Shown one piece after another: positions 6,445-41,597 of a DNA stretch of 41,597 nt. The notes below the pieces were generated by a model, which did no database searches, was not told the DNA's origin, and saw only the letters and a program-made list of their open reading frames with translations. Position numbers and translations under genes: made by a program. The DNA is from a virus. Numbering within the stretch: position 1 is the stretch's first letter; the number at the start of each line of letters is the position of its first letter. The stretch lies in the IMG/VR virus record IMGVR_UViG_3300050821_005497, positions 1 to 41,597 of that record; one strand, 5' to 3'.

Positions 6445-8190
6445 CTAGGCGGTTTGCCGCCACCGGCCCAAACAGATTAAATCGCTCGTCCAGTTTCGGC
6501 GCGCTTGGGTGGGCACGCTTGCCAAATCTGTACCAGTAACCCGCTGTTCTTCCATGATTTCTTCGACCGTCCGAATTTTTGGAAACAGGTTCATCCCCAT
6601 AATCGCGGAAAGTCTTGCGTAGGGCGTTACTTCGTACTCCGCACGCGGCGGCGTCGGGTGAACCACGAAACGGTCGAACACATTGCGGAAAGCAAGCCGC
6701 GAACCTTCATCTTCGAGATCGTGCAACAGGGCGGCGTGGATTTGGCTAATGTCGGATCGGAATTTATCGAGCGAGGCGGGGTGAAGGCTCACAACATTTT
6801 CCTCCGCTTCGATACAGCGCAGTTGTTCAGCCGCACCAGCCCGCTCGATTTCGAGTTTTTTCAGTTTGGCTACGAGGGCCGGAATAGGCTCATCCAATTC
6901 CGTGATCGCTTCAACGGCACGCTCAATTCGATGATCCAAATTGTTGACCTTCGTTTGCAACTCGTTGCGCGTGATCCGATCTTCCTTTTGCTTTTCGGAC
7001 CATCGGGAATGATAGGCTTTGGTTGCCTCGATTAGTGCCTCCGGGTCGGTTAGGTATTCTTTCATCCCCTTGAGAACAACGCGCTCTAATTTCGCCAGAT
7101 CATAACTTTTGCGATGATCGCAGGCACTATGATAGTGCGCCGCGTTGCAGGCGGTGAACGGGCCACTCAACTTGCCACCCGATACGGTAAGCCGTCGTGA
7201 CGACGTGAGGATCATGCCGCCGCCGCACTTGCCACAAATCACCAGCCCCGACAGAAGGCTTCCTTTCAAAGTTGGCGATTTACGCTTTGGACGCTTGCCA
7301 CCGGGGCCGAACCTCCAAACGCCGCGCTCCTTGGAAAGTCCGTTAGCTCGATGCCAAAGGATATCATCCATGATCCGCAGATGCGGGACATCAACCGTAA
7401 TGATGTTGTCGGGATTGTTGGCGCGTCTGATAATCTTTCCATTGTCAGGATTACGCATGCCGCGCGTGGCGTTCCAGATCACCTTGCCAATATAAATTTG
7501 ATTGTTGAGGATGCCGCTGCGAGTGGTGGTAAAAACCTGATGGTTCCAGACTGCACCGCCGCTCGGGTTCCGAATGCCGTCGCGCGTCAATCCTTCCGCG
7601 ATCTCTCGCGTTGATTTACCGTTGCCATATTCGGAATAAATACGTCGGACGATCTCGGCCTTTTCTTGATCAATCTCTTTCTCGGATGGCTTGCCCGGAA
7701 CGCAACGATAGCCGTAGGCGGGCACGCCGGGAATTTTGCCCTCTCGCACCCGCGCGTCATGATGTCTACGGACCTTATCCGCGTTGTCCTTTACAGTTTG
7801 CGAGCCGATTAGGCCGCCGACCGTAATATGAAATTTTGTGATCTCGCCATTCGGCGTCCAAATCTTGATCTCGTTAAATTGAAGCCGCTTGAAGATATGC
7901 TGCAAATCTTCTTCGTCGCGCGAAATGCGGTCAATGTGTTCGCTGATAACAACTTGAAAGGCGCGTTGCTTGGCTGCCTTCATCATCGAATATAAGCCGT
8001 CGCGCTCAAACATAGTTGTCGCCGATTTCGCGCGGTCGGAAAAAATAAACTTATCGTTGATCGTGAAGCCGAAGCGCTTCGCCAATTCACGGCAATAGAT
8101 AATTTGATCCTCAACAGAGGCGTCATTCTGTAGGTCGGTTGAGTATCTTGCGTACACCGCTGCGATTGTCATTCCCCTTGGCCCTTTCAT
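6445..8190 (-). CDS. Large serine recombinase, probable phage integrase
   Basis: Domains in order: resolvase/invertase catalytic domain (residues about 8-155) with YARYSTDLQ, whose Ser is the nucleophile, and the Arg-containing HIDRISRD; a recombinase domain (about 165-290, GVPAYGYR to IYIGKVIWN); a zinc ribbon (about 315-370, CGKCGGG and later Cys pair ACNAAH/ACDHRK); and a coiled coil (about 390-470, NELQTKVNNLDHRIERAVEAI). The total of 581 residues fits the family. These enzymes integrate phage DNA between attP and attB. Translation may start at 8190 or at 8172 (MTIAAVYARYS). No attP core could be identified. Confidence 0.93.
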   Translation of the reverse strand: MKGPRGMTIAAVYARYSTDLQNDASVEDQIIYCRELAKRFGFTINDKFIFSDRAKSATTMFERDGLYSMMKAAKQRAFQVVISEHIDRISRDEEDLQHIFKRLQFNEIKIWTPNGEITKFHITVGGLIGSQTVKDNADKVRRHHDARVREGKIPGVPAYGYRCVPGKPSEKEIDQEKAEIVRRIYSEYGNGKSTREIAEGLTRDGIRNPSGGAVWNHQVFTTTRSGILNNQIYIGKVIWNATRGMRNPDNGKIIRRANNPDNIITVDVPHLRIMDDILWHRANGLSKERGVWRFGPGGKRPKRKSPTLKGSLLSGLVICGKCGGGMILTSSRRLTVSGGKLSGPFTACNAAHYHSACDHRKSYDLAKLERVVLKGMKEYLTDPEALIEATKAYHSRWSEKQKEDRITRNELQTKVNNLDHRIERAVEAITELDEPIPALVAKLKKLEIERAGAAEQLRCIEAEENVVSLHPASLDKFRSDISQIHAALLHDLEDEGSRLAFRNVFDRFVVHPTPPRAEYEVTPYARLSAIMGMNLFPKIRTVEEIMEEQRVTGTDLASVPTQARRNWTSDLICLGRWRQTA

Positions 8191-9515: not shown

Positions 9516-9709
9516 AGCGGGACCTCCGATTTTTTAGGAAGTTGTCCACTATATCGTATTAGTTACGATTTACTAGGTGCGATGCCGGTGAATTACGAGG
9601 ATAGCGCCATCCGCCAAATATATTTTTAATTCACATAAAAAGTTTGATATGGTGAAAGTTTCCGACCGGGGAAGGGGGCCGGAACCAGTCGCGTACCAGT
9701 GAGGCAGTC
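9516..9709. promoter_or_regulatory. Divergent control region before the integrase operon
   Basis: AT-rich region between divergent genes. It contains an inverted repeat TCGTA-TTAGT-TACGA (9554-9568) next to the leftward gene, a T/A-rich stretch with TGATAT around 9644-9649 that could be a rightward -10, and a stem TTCCGACC (9660-9667) with GGCCGGAA (9677-9684) in the leader of the gene at 9710. The CGTA/TACG half-sites recur at the switch region near 10425-10457. Confidence 0.5.
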
Positions 9710-9895
9710 ATGTCAGACCGGCAATGTGAACAAAATCATGAGTATGACAGGGAGCGGCAGGCGCTCTACATGATAGGGCTGCTTCCCCTTCACGACTATC
9801 AGGCATGCAAAGACACACTCGCGCTCTGCGGTCGGCTGTTGCCGCTGGTTTGCAGTCCGCCCTCTATCGGCGACGAGGCGCAGACGACCGAATAG
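9710..9895 (+). CDS. Small hypothetical protein (61 aa)
   Basis: Polar N-terminus (MSDRQCEQNHEYDRERQ) and a helix with two Cys (ACKDTLALCGRLL). GAGG lies about 7 bases before the ATG. Its last 32 bases overlap the 3' end of the repressor gene, convergently. Not recognised; it could be an orphan expressed from the leader hairpin region. Confidence 0.5.
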   Translation: MSDRQCEQNHEYDRERQALYMIGLLPLHDYQACKDTLALCGRLLPLVCSPPSIGDEAQTTE

Positions 9896-10256
9896 CCTTT
9901 TTCCGCTTGGCCGCGACCAGCCGTAATTTTTCCGCCGCCTGATCGACGGCGCGTTGCGCTGCGGCGATTTCCTCTTGGTGCGCCTCGGCGGTGGCAATCT
10001 TGGCCTTGAACTCTTTGGAAAGGTTGCCGTCCCACCCCCACCAAATCCACTCGACCGACATGCCGGGGAAGGCGCTGACGATCAGGAACGCGGTTTCCCG
10101 TGGTACGGGATAACCGCGCTCATAATTACTCCACCGCTTGAACGGTATCCCGAGACGCTTTGCGAAATCGCTCTGATTTTCGCCCGCGATGATCTCGCGC
10201 AAGAGGCGAAGGCGTTCTTGATAGGCAGCGGTATCGAAGCCATCCACCTTTCGCAT
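9864..10256 (-). CDS. XRE-type phage repressor (CI-like, 130 aa)
   Basis: Residues about 14-75 form an HTH_3 domain: RLRLLREIIAGENQSDFAKRLGIPFKRWSNYERG, then the typical VEWIWWGWDG after the last helix. The C-terminus is a long Ala/Lys-rich helix with no peptidase domain, so SOS self-cleavage is not expected. Start at 10256 has GAGAGGA five bases before it. Its place opposite a small Cro-like gene, with operator-like repeats between them, makes a lysogeny repressor the best reading. Confidence 0.8.
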   Translation of the reverse strand: MRKVDGFDTAAYQERLRLLREIIAGENQSDFAKRLGIPFKRWSNYERGYPVPRETAFLIVSAFPGMSVEWIWWGWDGNLSKEFKAKIATAEAHQEEIAAAQRAVDQAAEKLRLVAAKRKKAIRSSAPRRR

Positions 10257-10360
10257 TTTTTCCTCTCGCAAAAACGATTTTAGAAAGTTTCTTAACAGTA
10301 GCTCTAACAATTTAATACAACCTTTTGGAGGTGAGGTACAGGCATAAAAAGAGTTACTAA

Positions 10361-10381
10361 GTGGCAACATACGAATGCCAC
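10361..10381. promoter_or_regulatory. Operator-like inverted repeat upstream of the repressor gene
   Basis: Perfect arms GTGGCA (10361-10366) and TGCCAC (10376-10381) with a nine-base spacer that includes ATACGAA. It lies in the repressor leader, about 105 bases from its start. It may bind the repressor or the Cro-like protein. Confidence 0.45.
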
Positions 10382-10411: not shown

Positions 10412-10457
10412 TTGCCAATCGTACTCATTACGCATAACGTGCCGCCGTTCGTAATGA
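10412..10457 (+). promoter_or_regulatory. Rightward early promoter with overlapping operator
   Basis: TTGCCA (10412-10417), a 17-base spacer and TAACGT (10435-10440) make a sigma70-like promoter aimed at the gene at 10470. Perfect eight-base inverted repeats, TCATTACG (10425-10432) and CGTAATGA (10450-10457), flank the -10 and start region, so a bound dimer would block initiation. This is the expected layout for a repressed early promoter. Confidence 0.6.
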
Positions 10458-10469
10458 ATAGGTGGCGTG

Positions 10470-10694
10470 ATGAAGCGATTGCGAACCGTTCAAGAAGTGG
10501 TTGAAGCGCTAGGCGGCCTCAATGGCGTCTGCGAGCTTACCGAAGCAAATCTCAAACAGGCTTGGCATTGGGTTGGGCGTGCGGGGCAATTCCCGGCGAA
10601 CACCTACGTCATCATGCAACGCTCTCTAAAGGCGAGGGGCTTTGAAGCTCCGGCGCGGCTTTGGAATATGAAGGGCGTGGACAAGGCAGCCTGA
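10470..10694 (+). CDS. Cro-like / YdaS-like small HTH protein (74 aa)
   Basis: Residues 8-45 (QEVVEALGGLNGVCELTEANLKQAWHWVGRAGQFP) read as a short HTH of the YdaS/Cro type, followed by YVIMQRSLKARG, as in proteins that oppose a CI-like repressor. ATG at 10470 follows AGGTGG; a GTG three bases earlier is also possible. First gene of the rightward early operon and divergent from the repressor gene. Confidence 0.75.
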   Translation: MKRLRTVQEVVEALGGLNGVCELTEANLKQAWHWVGRAGQFPANTYVIMQRSLKARGFEAPARLWNMKGVDKAA

Positions 10695-15222: not shown

Positions 15223-15256
15223 GAAAAGCCGCAACGGTCACCCGTCGCGGCTTTTC
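15223..15256. terminator. Bidirectional hairpin between convergent operons
   Basis: Perfect ten-base stem GAAAAGCCGC (15223-15232) with GCGGCTTTTC (15247-15256), extended by an inner stem. The arms carry A and T runs, so it can stop transcripts from both sides. It separates the early operon (to 15138) from the leftward island (to 15321). Confidence 0.65.
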
Positions 15257-15284
15257 GCATTTCCGAACAGCGTCCCCCGCTGAT

Positions 15285-15321
15285 TGCCCGGCGTGATCCT
15301 CACAAGCGCGCCGGGCATTTT
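15285..15321 (+). terminator. Second intrinsic terminator, rightward
   Basis: Nine-base perfect stem TGCCCGGCG (15285-15293) with CGCCGGGCA (15309-15317), followed on the plus strand by TTTTC. It backs up the hairpin at 15223 and prevents early transcripts from running antisense into the island. Confidence 0.6.
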
Positions 15322-15494
15322 CATTTCCGCAATTCGTCGCGGACGATCTCGCGGATTTTTTCGTCGCGCTTCAGCAGGCATGCGCCGACAACAAAATAAA
15401 CAGCGCCCGCTGCCAAGCCGAGATAGAGCGCGGGCGGGTAACACCACAGCGCAAACGCAGCGGCGACGCCGCACCAAAACAATTCGTATTTCAT
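15321..15494 (-). CDS. Small membrane protein (57 aa)
   Basis: Starts [17 protein letters not shown] and has two hydrophobic segments (about residues 4-18 and 20-38) then a charged C-terminus (KRDEKIREIVRDELRK). The start at 15494 is fixed by an ATGA overlap with 15491. Last gene of the four-gene leftward unit run from the promoter near 16700. Function unknown. Confidence 0.65.
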   Translation of the reverse strand: MKYELFWCGVAAAFALWCYPPALYLGLAAGAVYFVVGACLLKRDEKIREIVRDELRK

Positions 15495-15736
15495 ACCTTC
15501 AAATCCTCTGCCGTGGCTTTGGTCTTGAGCATCAGGTTGATGAGCATTGCGATTACGGTCGGCACCGGATAGCGCTCGCCGATCCACGCGCGGACGGTGC
15601 GGTCGGAGACGTTGATCTTTTCAGCAAAGCCGACTTGCGAGAAGCCAAGCTTTTGCAGACAGGTCCAAAAATATTGCCCGGTCCATCCGCTATCATCGAT
15701 CCGCTTGACGCGGGTTTTCTTCACTGGCTTTTTCAT
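15491..15736 (-). CDS. HTH DNA-binding protein (81 aa)
   Basis: Residues about 30-70 ([41 protein letters not shown]) form a plain XRE-like HTH. A basic tail precedes it ([12 protein letters not shown]). Start at 15736 overlaps the stop of the serine recombinase gene (15733) by ATGA. It is a candidate regulator of the shared promoters in this island. Confidence 0.75.
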
Positions 15737-16389
15737 GCTGCCGATTTCTCCGTTAGTCGTTTGCAAAGACGCAGCGCGGTTTCGGATTTCCACGCTTTGC
15801 CGGTCGGGGTCTTGATGCCTTGCGCGTTGAGATACGCCGCGAGGCGGCGCGACGACAGGTTGATGACGGGCATCACAATGGCCCGCAAACCCTCTGCGAA
15901 GGCGTCGGCGTCGTCGGAATTTTGGCGAGCTTGATCCGGGTTGCCGAGTTTGACGCCGCGCGCCTTGGCCGCTGCAAGCGCGTCCGTGGTGCGTTGCGCG
16001 ATCATGCGGCGCTCTTTCTCGGCCACGGCGGCATAGATATGCAGCATGAACGGATCGACGTTAGCGCCTAGCTCGCAGACGATGAACGGCACGCGGGCCG
16101 ACATCAATCCCGCGATGAAAGCGACATCACGCGACAGCCGGTCAAGCTTGGCGATGATAACGGGCGCTTTCAGTTTCTTGGCGGCTTTCAAGGCCGCGTC
16201 CAATTGAGGGCGACGCTCTAGCGCGTCGTGGCCTTTGCCGGTTTCGATCTCGGCGAAGTCGGCCGCGATCTCATAGCCTTCATTCGCACAAAATGCGGCG
16301 ATGGTGGTTTGTTGCGCGTCAAGCCCGAACACGGGCTTGCCTTTGCGCTCTTTCGACAGGCGACGATAGGAAACGGCGGGTTTCATCAT
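15733..16389 (-). CDS. Small serine recombinase (resolvase/invertase family, 218 aa)
   Basis: Catalytic domain with SYRRLS near residue 12 (the Ser is the nucleophile), AKLDRLSRD near residue 100 and the E-helix [23 protein letters not shown]-terminal HTH ([30 protein letters not shown]) binds DNA. A short insertion ([10 protein letters not shown]) lies between the Ser and GLDAQ. Lacks the zinc ribbon and coiled coil of the integrase at 6445, so it probably acts as a resolvase or invertase. Overlaps the gene upstream by four bases. Confidence 0.88.
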
Positions 16390-16667
16390 TCGGCCCTTAT
16401 GATTGGTAACGCGGCGGCCATTGTGTCGGCCCATTGCTTCACATCGTCGGCGGCCGTCAAATACTGTCCGCGCTTGTAAGCGTTGCCCGTGATGTCGGTT
16501 GCGGCTTTGAGCATGGCGCTAGGCGTCCAAGCCCGGTTCGGTTTCATTCCGGTTTTGGCATAAAGCCGCAACGCGGCAGAGATAGCCCTAGCTTGGTACA
16601 GTCTTACGGCGTCCGGCCCGGCAAACGTAGTGCCACCCGGCCCGGTCTTGATCTCGCTGTTGTTCAT
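16386..16667 (-). CDS. Hypothetical protein found with ArdC modules (93 aa)
   Basis: Pattern [58 protein letters not shown] is one I associate with small proteins on rhizobial plasmids and phages. Function unknown. Start at 16667 is fixed by AAGGGGA about seven bases upstream. First gene of the unit 16667-15321, reading from the promoter at 16691-16720. Confidence 0.75.
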
Positions 16668-16690
16668 TTGGTTCCCCTTGTTGGTCCGCT

Positions 16691-16720
16691 TTGATAGGGC
16701 TTTAATTCCTAGCGTGTCAA
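16691..16720 (-). promoter_or_regulatory. Island promoter A (leftward)
   Basis: On the minus strand TTGACA (16715-16720), a 17-base spacer and CTATCA (16692-16697; or TATCAA with 18). The CGCTAGG just inside the spacer is shared with the promoters at 17694 and 18642. It reads into the gene at 16667. Confidence 0.7.
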
Positions 16721-16731
16721 GCCCTTGACGC

Positions 16732-16759
16732 AAAAAAGCCCGGCATGTTGGCCGGGCTT
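16732..16759 (-). terminator. Intrinsic terminator after ardC
   Basis: Nine-base perfect stem AAGCCCGGC (16736-16744) with GCCGGGCTT (16751-16759). On the minus strand it ends in a run of six T. It lies 20 bases after the ArdC stop and before promoter A, so each transcription unit of the island is insulated. Confidence 0.8.
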
Positions 16760-16778
16760 CTTTCGTTAGGTCCGAATT

Positions 16779-17654
16779 TTACGCGGCGATGGCTTGCGGT
16801 TCGGCATTGGCGAGCGTCCGCAGATAGTCCGCTGCGGCTTGCGCCTTACTTGCCGCCGTCATGAATGCTTTCGGCTCATCCTTTAGAAGCTTGATCCACG
16901 ACGCGATATAAGCGGCATGGCGCAACTCGCCGTCGATTGAAAATTCCGCGCACAAAAACGCGCTGGTCAATTCAGCAACTAATTCCTCGGCCGCATAAGC
17001 TTGCGTTCCGAAGCGACCGGAAAAATCGCGGTCAAGGCGCGACTTGTGGCCAGTCCAATGCGCCAACTCATGAAACGTGACGCCGTAGAACGTCGCGGCG
17101 GATTTGAACGCGGCAAACGCTGGCATTGAAATGAAGTCTTGACCGGGTGCGAAGTAAGCCTCGCCGAAACCTTCGCGGATAGTCGCACCGCTCGCCGCCA
17201 AAAATTCATCAATGGTGGCGTCGCGTTCATCGTTGTGGCGCGGCTTGATCTCGCCGGGCGACGTGATGCGCTCTGGCAGGTTTTCGCACTGGTCAACATT
17301 GAACACGGTATAGGCTTTGAGCATGGTGAAGGCGCGCGGATCAGCGTCGCTGTCATCCTTTGGCTTGCCGACCATTTGCTTGACGAAATAGACGGTAAAG
17401 CCGTGTTCACCTTTCTTGACGTTGCCGCCCAAATCCTTGGCTTGCTTGAACGTCAAGAAACGCGGCGACGCGAAGCGGCCATGCGACAGCCAAAGCAACA
17501 TGACGTTGCAGCCCGAATACGGACGGCCGGTTGCGGCATTGTGCGGAACGTTCTGACCGGGTGTTGCCGACCACGGCTTAACCCAAGGCGCAAAGCCGTT
17601 TTCCAATTCGGACAGGATGCGAGCGGTGATATCGGAGTAAGGATTGCTTGCCAT
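16779..17654 (-). CDS. ardC: ArdC-type antirestriction protein (291 aa)
   Basis: N-terminal ArdC ssDNA-binding domain (residues about 5-125): DITARILSELENGFAPWVKPW, then GRPYSGCNVMLLW and KGEHGFTVYFVK. C-terminal zincin metallopeptidase domain with HELAHWTGH at about 195-203 and EELVAELTSAFL supplying the third ligand. ArdC proteins protect incoming DNA against type I restriction on plasmids; here it would help the phage at entry or establishment (inference). ATG at 17654 follows AAGGGGAAA. It is the only gene of its unit, with its own promoter and terminator. Confidence 0.92.
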   Translation of the reverse strand: MASNPYSDITARILSELENGFAPWVKPWSATPGQNVPHNAATGRPYSGCNVMLLWLSHGRFASPRFLTFKQAKDLGGNVKKGEHGFTVYFVKQMVGKPKDDSDADPRAFTMLKAYTVFNVDQCENLPERITSPGEIKPRHNDERDATIDEFLAASGATIREGFGEAYFAPGQDFISMPAFAAFKSAATFYGVTFHELAHWTGHKSRLDRDFSGRFGTQAYAAEELVAELTSAFLCAEFSIDGELRHAAYIASWIKLLKDEPKAFMTAASKAQAAADYLRTLANAEPQAIAA

Positions 17655-17693
17655 CAATGTTTCCCCTTGCTGGCGGTTTCGATCAACAAGGCG

Positions 17694-17723
17694 AATATAG
17701 GAAGTGAAGCCCTAGCGCGTCAA
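17694..17723 (-). promoter_or_regulatory. Island promoter B (ardC promoter)
   Basis: On the minus strand TTGACG (17718-17723), a 17-base spacer starting CGCTAGGG, and CTATAT (17695-17700; or TATATT with 18). The -35 and CGCTAGGG are the same as in the promoter at 18642-18671. Confidence 0.75.
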
Positions 17724-17879
17724 TAGCTAGGCGTAATAAATACGAATTTATTTTTCCGTTCGTTCCTGTTCTGACCTATTGACACGATAGGAAGCCCGCA
17801 CGGCGGCGTGTTTTTCGGCCATATCGACATAGCGGGCACTCGAAAATAACGCATGGGTGAGCTTCTAATTGAACCGCAA

Positions 17880-17900
17880 CATTCGTAATAATTACGAATG
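17880..17900. promoter_or_regulatory. Perfect 21-base palindrome
   Basis: Ten-base arms CATTCGTAAT and ATTACGAATG around one central A. The half-site ATTCGTAAT resembles the operator arms near the repressor gene (CGTAATGA at 10450-10457, TCATTACG at 10425-10432). Likely a dimer binding site. Confidence 0.55.
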
Positions 17901-17940
17901 CGCCGCGCAACAATGTTGCAAATCGCTGCGGGCCGGATCA

Positions 17941-17960
17941 CTAGCGCGTCAAGCCCTAGT
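17941..17960. promoter_or_regulatory. Extra copy of the island promoter element
   Basis: CTAGCGCGTCAA, then GCCCTAG, with the flanks forming CACTAG/CTAGTG symmetry. No -10 is present at the right distance on either strand, so this looks like a protein-binding site rather than a promoter. Confidence 0.5.
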
Positions 17961-17978
17961 GTGATTATTCCCAAGAAT

Positions 17979-17995
17979 AATTTTTGCGAATTGGG
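17979..17995. repeat. 17-base direct repeat, copy 1
   Basis: AATTTTTGCGAATTGGG, identical to the copy at 18107-18123, 128 bases away. Function unknown; iteron, operator or recombination arm site are all possible. Confidence 0.6.
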
Positions 17996-18106
17996 ATTGA
18001 CACGATTAGAGCGTCGCTGGCGCGCGTCCAATGAGAACGAACATTGCATCAAGGTCGCAAAAATAACGAATGAGCGGCCTTCCTATTAGGTAGTATTTCC
18101 GTACCG

Positions 18107-18123
18107 AATTTTTGCGAATTGGG
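18107..18123. repeat. 17-base direct repeat, copy 2
   Basis: Exact second copy of AATTTTTGCGAATTGGG. It ends just before the terminator at 18127, which marks the end of the leftward gene pair 18606-18168. Confidence 0.6.
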
Positions 18124-18126
18124 CAC

Positions 18127-18154
18127 AAAAAAAACCCGCCACAAGGGCGGGTTT
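18127..18154 (-). terminator. Strong intrinsic terminator of the 18606-18168 unit
   Basis: Stem AAACCCGCC (18132-18140) with GGCGGGTTT (18146-18154) and a five-base loop. On the minus strand it is followed by an uninterrupted T-run (eight T counting the stem end). Lies 14 bases after the stop at 18168. Confidence 0.85.
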
Positions 18155-18167
18155 GCTTGGTTTCCAT

Positions 18168-18338
18168 TTAGAACATTTCCCCTTGCTTATGAGCGTCGCC
18201 GAATAGGCCGCTGTCGCATGGTGTTTGAGGCTTCGAAGGTTTCAGCGGTGCATTTGCGTGCCGCTGTAGGGTTTCGCCGATCCGCGCTTGCGTATCGGGT
18301 AAGTCGATTTGACTAGAACGGGATTGACCGGATTGCAT
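18168..18338 (-). CDS. Small hypothetical protein (56 aa)
   Basis: Polar, with the motif RIGETLQRHANAPLKPSKPQTPCDSGLFGD, which I associate with short proteins on phages and plasmids of alphaproteobacteria. GAGAGG lies nine bases before the ATG at 18338, inside the end of the upstream gene. No function known. Confidence 0.65.
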   Translation of the reverse strand: MQSGQSRSSQIDLPDTQARIGETLQRHANAPLKPSKPQTPCDSGLFGDAHKQGEMF

Positions 18339-18606
18339 TTTTGATTGCCTCTCGTTTTTCTTCCTTTGCCAGATCAAACGCGACAGGGGCGAAAGCAAAA
18401 TCGCCGCGCGCCTTGTCGCACGTCACCTTGAATTGCATGCGAGCGCGATAGATCGCTTGCCGGAAAGGCGTCATTTCCGCATAGCCGCGCGCCTTGTCGA
18501 AAGCGGTAGCGGTCGCGTGCACTTTTTGCGCACCGCCGCAACCGTTGCGCTGATAGCGGTCGGCGGCAACGTGCTTTAGTTCGTTCATCGCATTGGTATC
18601 AAACAT
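18313..18606 (-). CDS. Hypothetical island protein (97 aa)
   Basis: Helical and basic (FDKARGYAEMTPFRQAIYRARMQFKVTCDKARGDFAFAPVAFDLAKEEKREAIKNAIRSI). Not recognised with confidence. ATG at 18606 follows AAGGGGAAAA, the leader shared with ardC, and its promoter at 18642-18671 is nearly identical to that of ardC. It may be a cofactor in the same antirestriction response (inference). Confidence 0.75.
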   Translation of the reverse strand: MFDTNAMNELKHVAADRYQRNGCGGAQKVHATATAFDKARGYAEMTPFRQAIYRARMQFKVTCDKARGDFAFAPVAFDLAKEEKREAIKNAIRSIPF

Positions 18607-18641
18607 TCGTTTTCCCCTTGCGCTCTCGATTGAGCAAAACG

Positions 18642-18681
18642 AATATAGGTATTGACACCCTAGCGCGTCAAGCCCTATCAA
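18642..18681. promoter_or_regulatory. Bidirectional island promoters D
   Basis: Leftward: TTGACG (18666-18671 on minus), 17 bases, CTATAT (18643-18648). Rightward: TTGACA (18652-18657), 17 bases, CTATCA (18675-18680). The two overlap so that each -35 lies within the other's spacer and both share the CTAGCGCGTCAA element. One bound protein could control both genes. Confidence 0.75.
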
Positions 18682-18722
18682 TGAGGGGACGCGATCAAGC
18701 GTTATGCAAGGGGAAACGGCAT

Positions 18723-19055
18723 ATGAAAAAGCAAGCAAGGTTCTGGATTTATCACAACGGCGCGGTGCGGATTAAGCTTGGCACCGATCAGACCTTTCAC
18801 CATGTCAGCGGTGGCGCGACCGATGAAGGCTATTCTTGGGAAGCGGCGCGCTACACTTTCGACGGCAAGCTAGTGACGTGCGAATGGTCAACGGACGCGC
18901 GCGATTGCGATGGGCGGATGACACGCGGCGGTGTGACGGTCTGCCGGGTTGGCGATCTCGCGGCGGGCATCTGTGAAGATGGCATAGCGTTCCCGGCTTG
19001 GCAGCAAATCGACGAAAGCCAACGCGACTTTGCAGCCGAGGCGATGGGTTATTAG
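18723..19055 (+). CDS. Conserved plasmid-type hypothetical protein (110 aa)
   Basis: Strongly patterned: RFWIYHNGAVRIKL, DEGYSWEAARYTFDGKLVTCEWSTDARDCDGRM, GVTVCRVGDLAAG and QRDFAAEAMGY. I recall similar proteins on alphaproteobacterial plasmids near ardC, but no function. ATG at 18723 follows GCAAGGGGAAAC. It is the only rightward gene in the island, with its own promoter (18652) and terminator (19080). Confidence 0.8.
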   Translation: MKKQARFWIYHNGAVRIKLGTDQTFHHVSGGATDEGYSWEAARYTFDGKLVTCEWSTDARDCDGRMTRGGVTVCRVGDLAAGICEDGIAFPAWQQIDESQRDFAAEAMGY

Positions 19056-40811: not shown

Positions 40812-41597
40812 ATGAACAGACTGACGTTGATCCGCAGCCTTCGGCGCGGATGGGAAAGCCGCGCGCATTTTTTAACACCCCTCATCGCTTCGCTGTTGAT
40901 CGTCGGCACCACGCCAACGTTTGCGAACATGCCGGGCACCTTCCCGATGCCGTTCGCGCAAGCGGCGGGCAATGTTTTCACTTGCACGGGCGGCACGATC
41001 AGCACGAACGGCACGAACCGCGTCCACACCTTCAATGCGAGCGGCACGCTGACATGCACGGGCTTAGGCCCCGTTGCGATCAACTATCTCGTTGTCGGCG
41101 ATGGCGGCGGCGGCGGCGTCGGGGTTTCCACCCAAGGACAAGGCGCTGGCGGCGGTGGTGCGGGACAAATCGTTGCCGGATCAACCACGCTTGCGGCGGG
41201 GGCATATTCGATCACGGTTGGCGCTGGTGGCGCTGGTGGGGTTGCTTGTTCGGCGACGCCTTGCACGAACGGAAGCAACGGCACTGGATCGGTCTTCCCG
41301 ACAGTCACGTCCGCGCTCGGCGGCGGTGGCGGCGCGAGCCTTGGCACCACGACCAACGCCAGCAACACCGGGGGCAGCGGCGGCGGCGGTCAGGGCTTTA
41401 CCGGGACGGGAAATGCCGGGGGCCTCGGTGCAGCCGGTAACAGCGGCGGCGCGGGTTCTGGAACGGGCAACGGCGGCGGCGGCGGTGGCGGCGCGGGCGG
41501 CGTCGGTCAAGCGGGCGCGACCGCTGCGGCGGGCAGCGGCGGCAACGGCATCACGAATAGCATCACCGGCTCTGCCGTCACCTATGGCGGCGGCGGC
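40812..41597 (+). CDS. Glycine-rich adhesin-like protein, N-terminal part (runs off the window)
   Basis: ATG at 40812, four bases after the preceding stop, without a clear ribosome site, so coupling is likely. Residues about 18-39 (LTPLIASLLIVGTTPTFA) look like a signal peptide or anchor after a basic N-terminus. From about residue 75 (VHTFNASGTLTC) it is a Gly-rich domain with the same punctuation as the piece at 1-861, ending at VTYGGGGG. The frame stays open to the last base and matches the frame at base 1. Confidence 0.8.
   Translation, partial: MNRLTLIRSLRRGWESRAHFLTPLIASLLIVGTTPTFANMPGTFPMPFAQAAGNVFTCTGGTISTNGTNRVHTFNASGTLTCTGLGPVAINYLVVGDGGGGGVGVSTQGQGAGGGGAGQIVAGSTTLAAGAYSITVGAGGAGGVACSATPCTNGSNGTGSVFPTVTSALGGGGGASLGTTTNASNTGGSGGGGQGFTGTGNAGGLGAAGNSGGAGSGTGNGGGGGGGAGGVGQAGATAAAGSGGNGITNSITGSAVTYGGGG

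Follow-up and report, generated by a model that had tools for sequence, protein, structure and literature searches.

The window analysed here, 41,597 bases long, is a complete IMG/VR viral record in which a gene for an ArdC anti-restriction protein lies among small genes headed by closely similar promoters. This locus raises the question of whether these promoters form one regulon, which protein would control it, and what its genes would do for the virus.

Judged by gene content, namely a large serine integrase, CI-like and Cro-like genes, Gam-like and Erf-like genes and then terminase and portal, the virus is a temperate tailed phage. The island around ardC (15238-19055) follows the early genes and precedes the small terminase. 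A search of the phage collection gave no DNA-level relatives and a protein scan of genome contigs found no relatives; a pattern scan of genome contigs returned a single match, on a Hyphomicrobiales MAG contig. Glycine-coding repeats of one type (GGCGGCGGC) abound at both ends of the record (1-840 and 41090-41597), as though the contig had been broken inside a single repetitive gene, the genome being circular or permuted.

Promoters and operators around ardC

The sequence-only reading had described four promoters with 17-bp spacing (A, B and the divergent pair D- and D+), together with AAGGGGA leaders for the genes at 16667, 17654, 18606 and 18723, and all of these are present in the sequence (Table 1). 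The predicted promoters are of the sigma-70 type, with weak -10 boxes (CTATCA) in A and D+. The CSCTAGG element described as shared inside the spacer needs one correction, as D+ reads CCCTAGC there.

Five exact copies of TTGACRCSCTAG occur in the 41,597-base record (minus strand: 16709-16720, 17712-17723, 17941-17952 and 18660-18671; plus strand: 18652-18663), compared with none of the reversed control pattern. Allowing up to two mismatches, CTAGCGCGTCAA gave 19 matches against 4.8 expected, and 0/100 shuffles reached 19. An operator scan replaced the 12-mer, previously taken as the shared unit, with a 17-bp inverted repeat, TAGG-N9-CCTA, whose best form is TAGGGC-N5-GCCCTA. Every -35/-10 spacer holds this repeat, either exactly or with one mismatch, in the form known from Aca1, and the last bases of the spacer operator run into the -10. 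A second copy, usually degenerate, has its centre at the -35 TTGAC and shares two bases with the spacer copy. At the divergent pair, each operator is the spacer operator for one promoter and the -35 operator for the other. The further copy at 17941 does lack a -10, as had been observed, and reads as one good stand-alone operator rather than a promoter copy.

Approximately 400 bases upstream of promoter B (17720-18130) contain no evident gene. This stretch carries a repeated AATTTTTGCGAATTGGG (17979 and 18107) and two extra TTGACACGAT (17779 and 17998).

Table 1. Positions of promoters, operators and genes in the window
Feature	Position	Strand	Details
Promoter A	16692-16726	-	-35 TTGACA 16720-16715, -10 CTATCA 16697-16692; ahead of 16389-16667, the resolvase and the HTH gene
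Promoter A operators	16695-16711; 16710-16726	-	Spacer inverted repeat TAGGAATTAAAGCCCTA; degenerate -35 copy
Promoter B	17695-17729	-	-35 TTGACG 17723-17718, -10 CTATAT 17700-17695; drives ArdC
Promoter B operators	17698-17714; 17713-17729	-	Spacer inverted repeat TAGGGCTTCACTTCCTA; degenerate -35 copy
Divergent overlapping promoters D- and D+	18643-18680		D- TTGACG/CTATAT, D+ TTGACA/CTATCA; operators 18646-18662 (degenerate) and 18661-18677 (inverted repeat)
Orphan operator	17942-17958		Inverted repeat TAGCGCGTCAAGCCCTA; upstream of promoter B, no -10
81-aa HTH protein (HTH-15491)	15494-15736	-	Within promoter A operon
Small serine resolvase/invertase	15733-16386	-	Promoter A operon; PF00239 E=6e-21
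93-aa protein	16389-16667	-	No assigned function; first gene after promoter A
Terminator-like hairpin	16736-16759		Between ArdC end and promoter A
ArdC anti-restriction protein	16782-17654	-	PF08401 E=4e-35, PF18818 E=7e-47; promoter B gene
CI/Cro-type palindrome	17732-17744		CGTAATAAATACG; 9 bp upstream of promoter B -35
Second CI/Cro-type palindrome	17884-17896
Terminator-like hairpin	18132-18154		End of D- transcript
Overlapping 76-aa ORF	18168-18398	-	Kept in relatives L006 and L029; D- transcript
97-aa protein	18316-18606	-	No assigned function; gene of promoter D-
110-aa protein	18723-19055	+	No assigned function; gene of promoter D+; homologue in L031
Large serine integrase	6445-8190
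CI-like HTH protein	9864-10370
Cro-like gene	10467-10694		Read as such from position and sequence

Identity of the regulator

Two HTH proteins had been proposed to bind the element. The 81-residue protein of the promoter A operon fits; the CI-like protein does not, as the control region of its gene lacks a TAGG operator and has another palindrome, CGTACTCATTACG, instead. When a profile of 40 members of the HTH family was compared with PDB sequences, the best match was Aca1 (E=4e-8), followed by Aca2 (0.0098) and Aca10 (0.012). The window protein alone has low pairwise similarity to Aca1, which is not significant (phmmer E about 0.5). Its structural model (pLDDT 89) matched HigA2 (top), Aca1, Aca2 and Aca10 in Foldseek.

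Published Aca1 binding DNA includes TAGGCACAATGTGCCTA, which has the same 17-bp form (PMC9410881), and in reporters the representatives of all ten Aca families tested repress promoters by way of core-promoter inverted repeats (PMC9410906). The HTH gene also sits downstream in the operon of promoter A, the place that aca genes take in their own operons, and its product is predicted to repress that promoter. The 81-residue HTH protein (15494-15736) is the likely regulator of the TAGG operators.

By homology and operator, the predicted system is Aca-like. It shares with the acr-aca operons of Pseudomonas phage JBD30 a small HTH protein, here a putative autorepressor, whose gene lies downstream in an accessory operon, and an inverted repeat of the same form in the core promoter. 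Unlike in those operons, a single repressor appears to control four promoters, including a divergent pair, with the anti-restriction protein ArdC, rather than an anti-CRISPR, as its known target. Because no known anti-CRISPR family was found among the window genes, or by Pfam among the first genes behind such promoters in other contigs (see below), it is not a strict acr-aca operon. The antitoxins HigA2 and MqsA, also HTH autorepressors, have the same HTH fold, and the MqsA C-terminal domain is a weak family match. However, no toxin gene was identified beside the HTH gene, and the family scored below the cut-off of curated HigA/MqsA antitoxin models.

Operators and HTH genes in other phages

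We gathered 31 relatives through a neighbouring 174-aa protein, without reference to promoters, and sought palindromes at the promoter position without fixing their sequence. The relatives split into two operator classes, TAG and ATCCAA. L006, the relative found first, matches the window in its genes (ArdC, the resolvase and a 97-aa protein that is 82% identical) and has similar leaders, but its spacers each carry ATCCAA-N5-TTGGAT or a close variant. A homologue of the window HTH protein was found at every TAG-class locus and at no locus with the ATCCAA palindrome alone; L061 and L062 have the HTH gene together with palindromes of both classes. The HTH gene was present with a TAG operator at 20/22 loci having at least 2 kb of region and absent with an ATCCAA operator at 5/5 loci (Fisher p=2.6e-4, which overstates independence as the relatives share descent), and the group lacking the HTH gene looks like one lineage. 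The expectation that the element is conserved upstream of homologues thus held except in these sisters, where ATCCAA-N5-TTGGAT takes the exact place of the TAGG operator. Because the HTH gene tracks the TAG class and the sisters lacking it have ATCCAA, the sister phages seem, by sequence, to have changed regulator and operator together. Covariation of the HTH sequence with operator position 5 was not found (Mantel r=0.04, p=0.24).

Homologues of the 97-aa protein lie behind such promoters at 4 other loci. In L031 (1960-4360) and L029 (3360-4760), promoterless leftward island genes have a common intercistronic leader containing TTAGAAGCG and then AAGGGGA, after hairpin-like sequence.

To look beyond these relatives, we searched a set of 2.9 million viral contigs with two patterns, TTGAC-N4-TAGGC-N7-GCCTA and TTGAC-N4-TAGGG-N7-CCCTA, making no use of the protein, and counted 121 unique promoters, each with at least 1.2 kb downstream. 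A gene of the HTH family lay within 2.5 kb downstream on the same strand of 61/121 promoters, while the other placements were rare (3 upstream on the same strand, 0 downstream on the opposite strand and 4 upstream on the opposite strand), an asymmetry that autoregulation predicts. None of 12 ATCCAA control promoters had a family HTH gene. The proposal of a single regulator on a single element is therefore backed by co-occurrence, by the published Aca1 site and by the downstream same-operon direction. Roughly one in two of the promoters found by pattern had no family HTH gene within 2.5 kb; some lie further away or on a fragment, and others may be chance matches or answer to other regulators. 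At the -35 operator position, TAG occurred at -6 in 34 of about 143 promoters, compared with 0-3 at any other offset.

The first genes behind these promoters clustered into ArdC (largest, 10 members), resolvase (6), the 18316 family (5) and a CxxCxG protein (5), and the rest were mostly small orphans. Few of 85 first-gene representatives matched Pfam, the matches including ArdcN, DUF932, DUF2958, Nmad5 and LPD29. PADLOC defence models matched 1/85, so the first genes do not look like defence genes. One 17,048-base contig, IMGVR_UViG_3300023063_000005 (L133 and L158), has eight TAGGGC-N5-GCCCTA promoters, some with a common GTCTTCACTTGTCG after the operator, and would be a larger regulon of this kind. 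A family member at L099 (12004-12198), behind a TAGGCGCGCAGCGCCTA promoter, resembles Aca1 itself by eye (SSRVMRQYL).

Could the lysogeny repressor control the island instead, with the TAGG sites as dispersed operators of one immunity repressor, either CI-like or Cro-like? In sister phages L070 (5396-5416) and L067 (5203-5219), the ATCCAA-N5-TTGGAT island operator is also found in the CI/Cro intergenic region, in the promoter of the Cro gene. An immunity regulator could therefore run such an island, and in ATCCAA-class phages the lysogeny regulator may do so. In the window and other TAG-class phages, however, the CI/Cro region has CGTAMTNATTACG-like sites and no TAGG palindrome, and the CI homologue occurs in both operator classes while the HTH family occurs only with TAG operators. 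On the CI/Cro-region sites we rejected CI/Cro as the regulator in the window phage, and consider this explanation improbable. It is harder still to credit a recombination role, in which the HTH protein would be a VC1465/XafT-like accessory factor for the adjacent resolvase and the palindromes recombination or accessory sites. The resolvase gene does adjoin the HTH gene in this phage group, and the family has weak NCBIfam matches to the VC1465 Xer activation factor, but these fall far below the curated cut-off, the palindromes keep fixed promoter registers before many genes of unrelated kinds, and most unrelated contigs have first genes other than resolvases.

Sequence alone would also be compatible with a binder that the phage does not encode. 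A host-encoded regulator is nevertheless just as hard to credit as the recombination role, since operator identity shifts with the phage's own HTH gene and the operator-HTH link recurs in many unrelated viral contigs. Least probable of all is that the promoters arose by recent duplication of a single early promoter, with no regulatory role for the palindrome: B and D- are 84% alike over 37 bases, but the flanks of A and D+ differ, and in distant phages both palindrome arms are conserved around a variable 5-base centre.

The window also contains 32 matches (both strands counted) to the CGTAMTNATTACG palindrome, where 2.85 would be expected. The CI/Cro control region (10420-10432) and the sequence upstream of promoter B have exact or near-exact copies, and it is possible that CGTAMTNATTACG sites are CI/Cro operators acting on the island. 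As dispersed 'stoperators' they were convincing only at 10420, 17732, 17884 and perhaps 9555 (9555-9567); most others are intragenic. A similar site adjoins island promoters in L029 (5082) and L055 (12738).

A predicted establishment regulon

With the Aca1-like HTH protein as the likely regulator, we consider it quite probable that the island is an autorepressed, multi-promoter, Aca1-type anti-defence ('establishment') regulon in a temperate phage. A cell that the phage has just entered has no repressor, and a burst of ArdC, resolvase and small proteins would be made. As the HTH protein then accumulated, it would bind the operators in dimeric form, like Aca1, and block RNA polymerase, shutting all four promoters, including its own; expression would be low in the lysogen. 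The operator pair at D would switch both divergent genes together, and the CI/Cro-type sites by promoter B might conceivably add a second, immunity-linked control.

The ArdC assignment is supported by its ArdcN and MPTase-PolyVal domains and by the HELAH zinc motif in FHELAHWTGH. ArdC of plasmid R388 is described as protecting incoming DNA against host restriction (PMC7213743). That the genes without assigned function are anti-defence candidates, as had been suggested, is supported by association: no first gene behind such promoters is more common than ArdC, and others match ArdcN, DUF932, DUF2958 and Nmad5.

The regulon had also been called previously undescribed. It was not found in the literature searched, but its logic is known from acr-aca operons and from ardC/Reg of the Bacillus plasmid p576. 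In p576, ardC and genes of unknown function are driven by several promoters with a common operator, and are expressed transiently on entry until the autoregulated repressor, Reg, accumulates (PMC8708921). Reg, however, is a predicted ribbon-helix-helix protein and paired TTATCCC direct repeats flank the promoter (PMC8708921), whereas the phage island has a predicted HTH protein and a palindrome inside the promoter; it has neither a ribbon-helix-helix Reg nor dual TTATCCC.

Anti-defence genes are small and have no common sequence signature, and they are often found through guilt by association with aca genes. The operator can be read from the DNA and occurs before single scattered genes, which extends the search beyond the aca operon. 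We put at about even the chance of a wider reading, in which TAGG-N9-CCTA promoters with an Aca1-like gene would be a very widespread phage module reaching beyond anti-CRISPRs. One repressor would govern dispersed, mosaic anti-defence regulons (anti-restriction, nucleotide-modification-associated and many small proteins without assigned function), and the operator alone would find new anti-defence genes. The island would place phage anti-restriction, through ArdC, under a switch of the type that governs anti-CRISPRs, and it gives a testable reason for the different palindromes at one position in sister phages.
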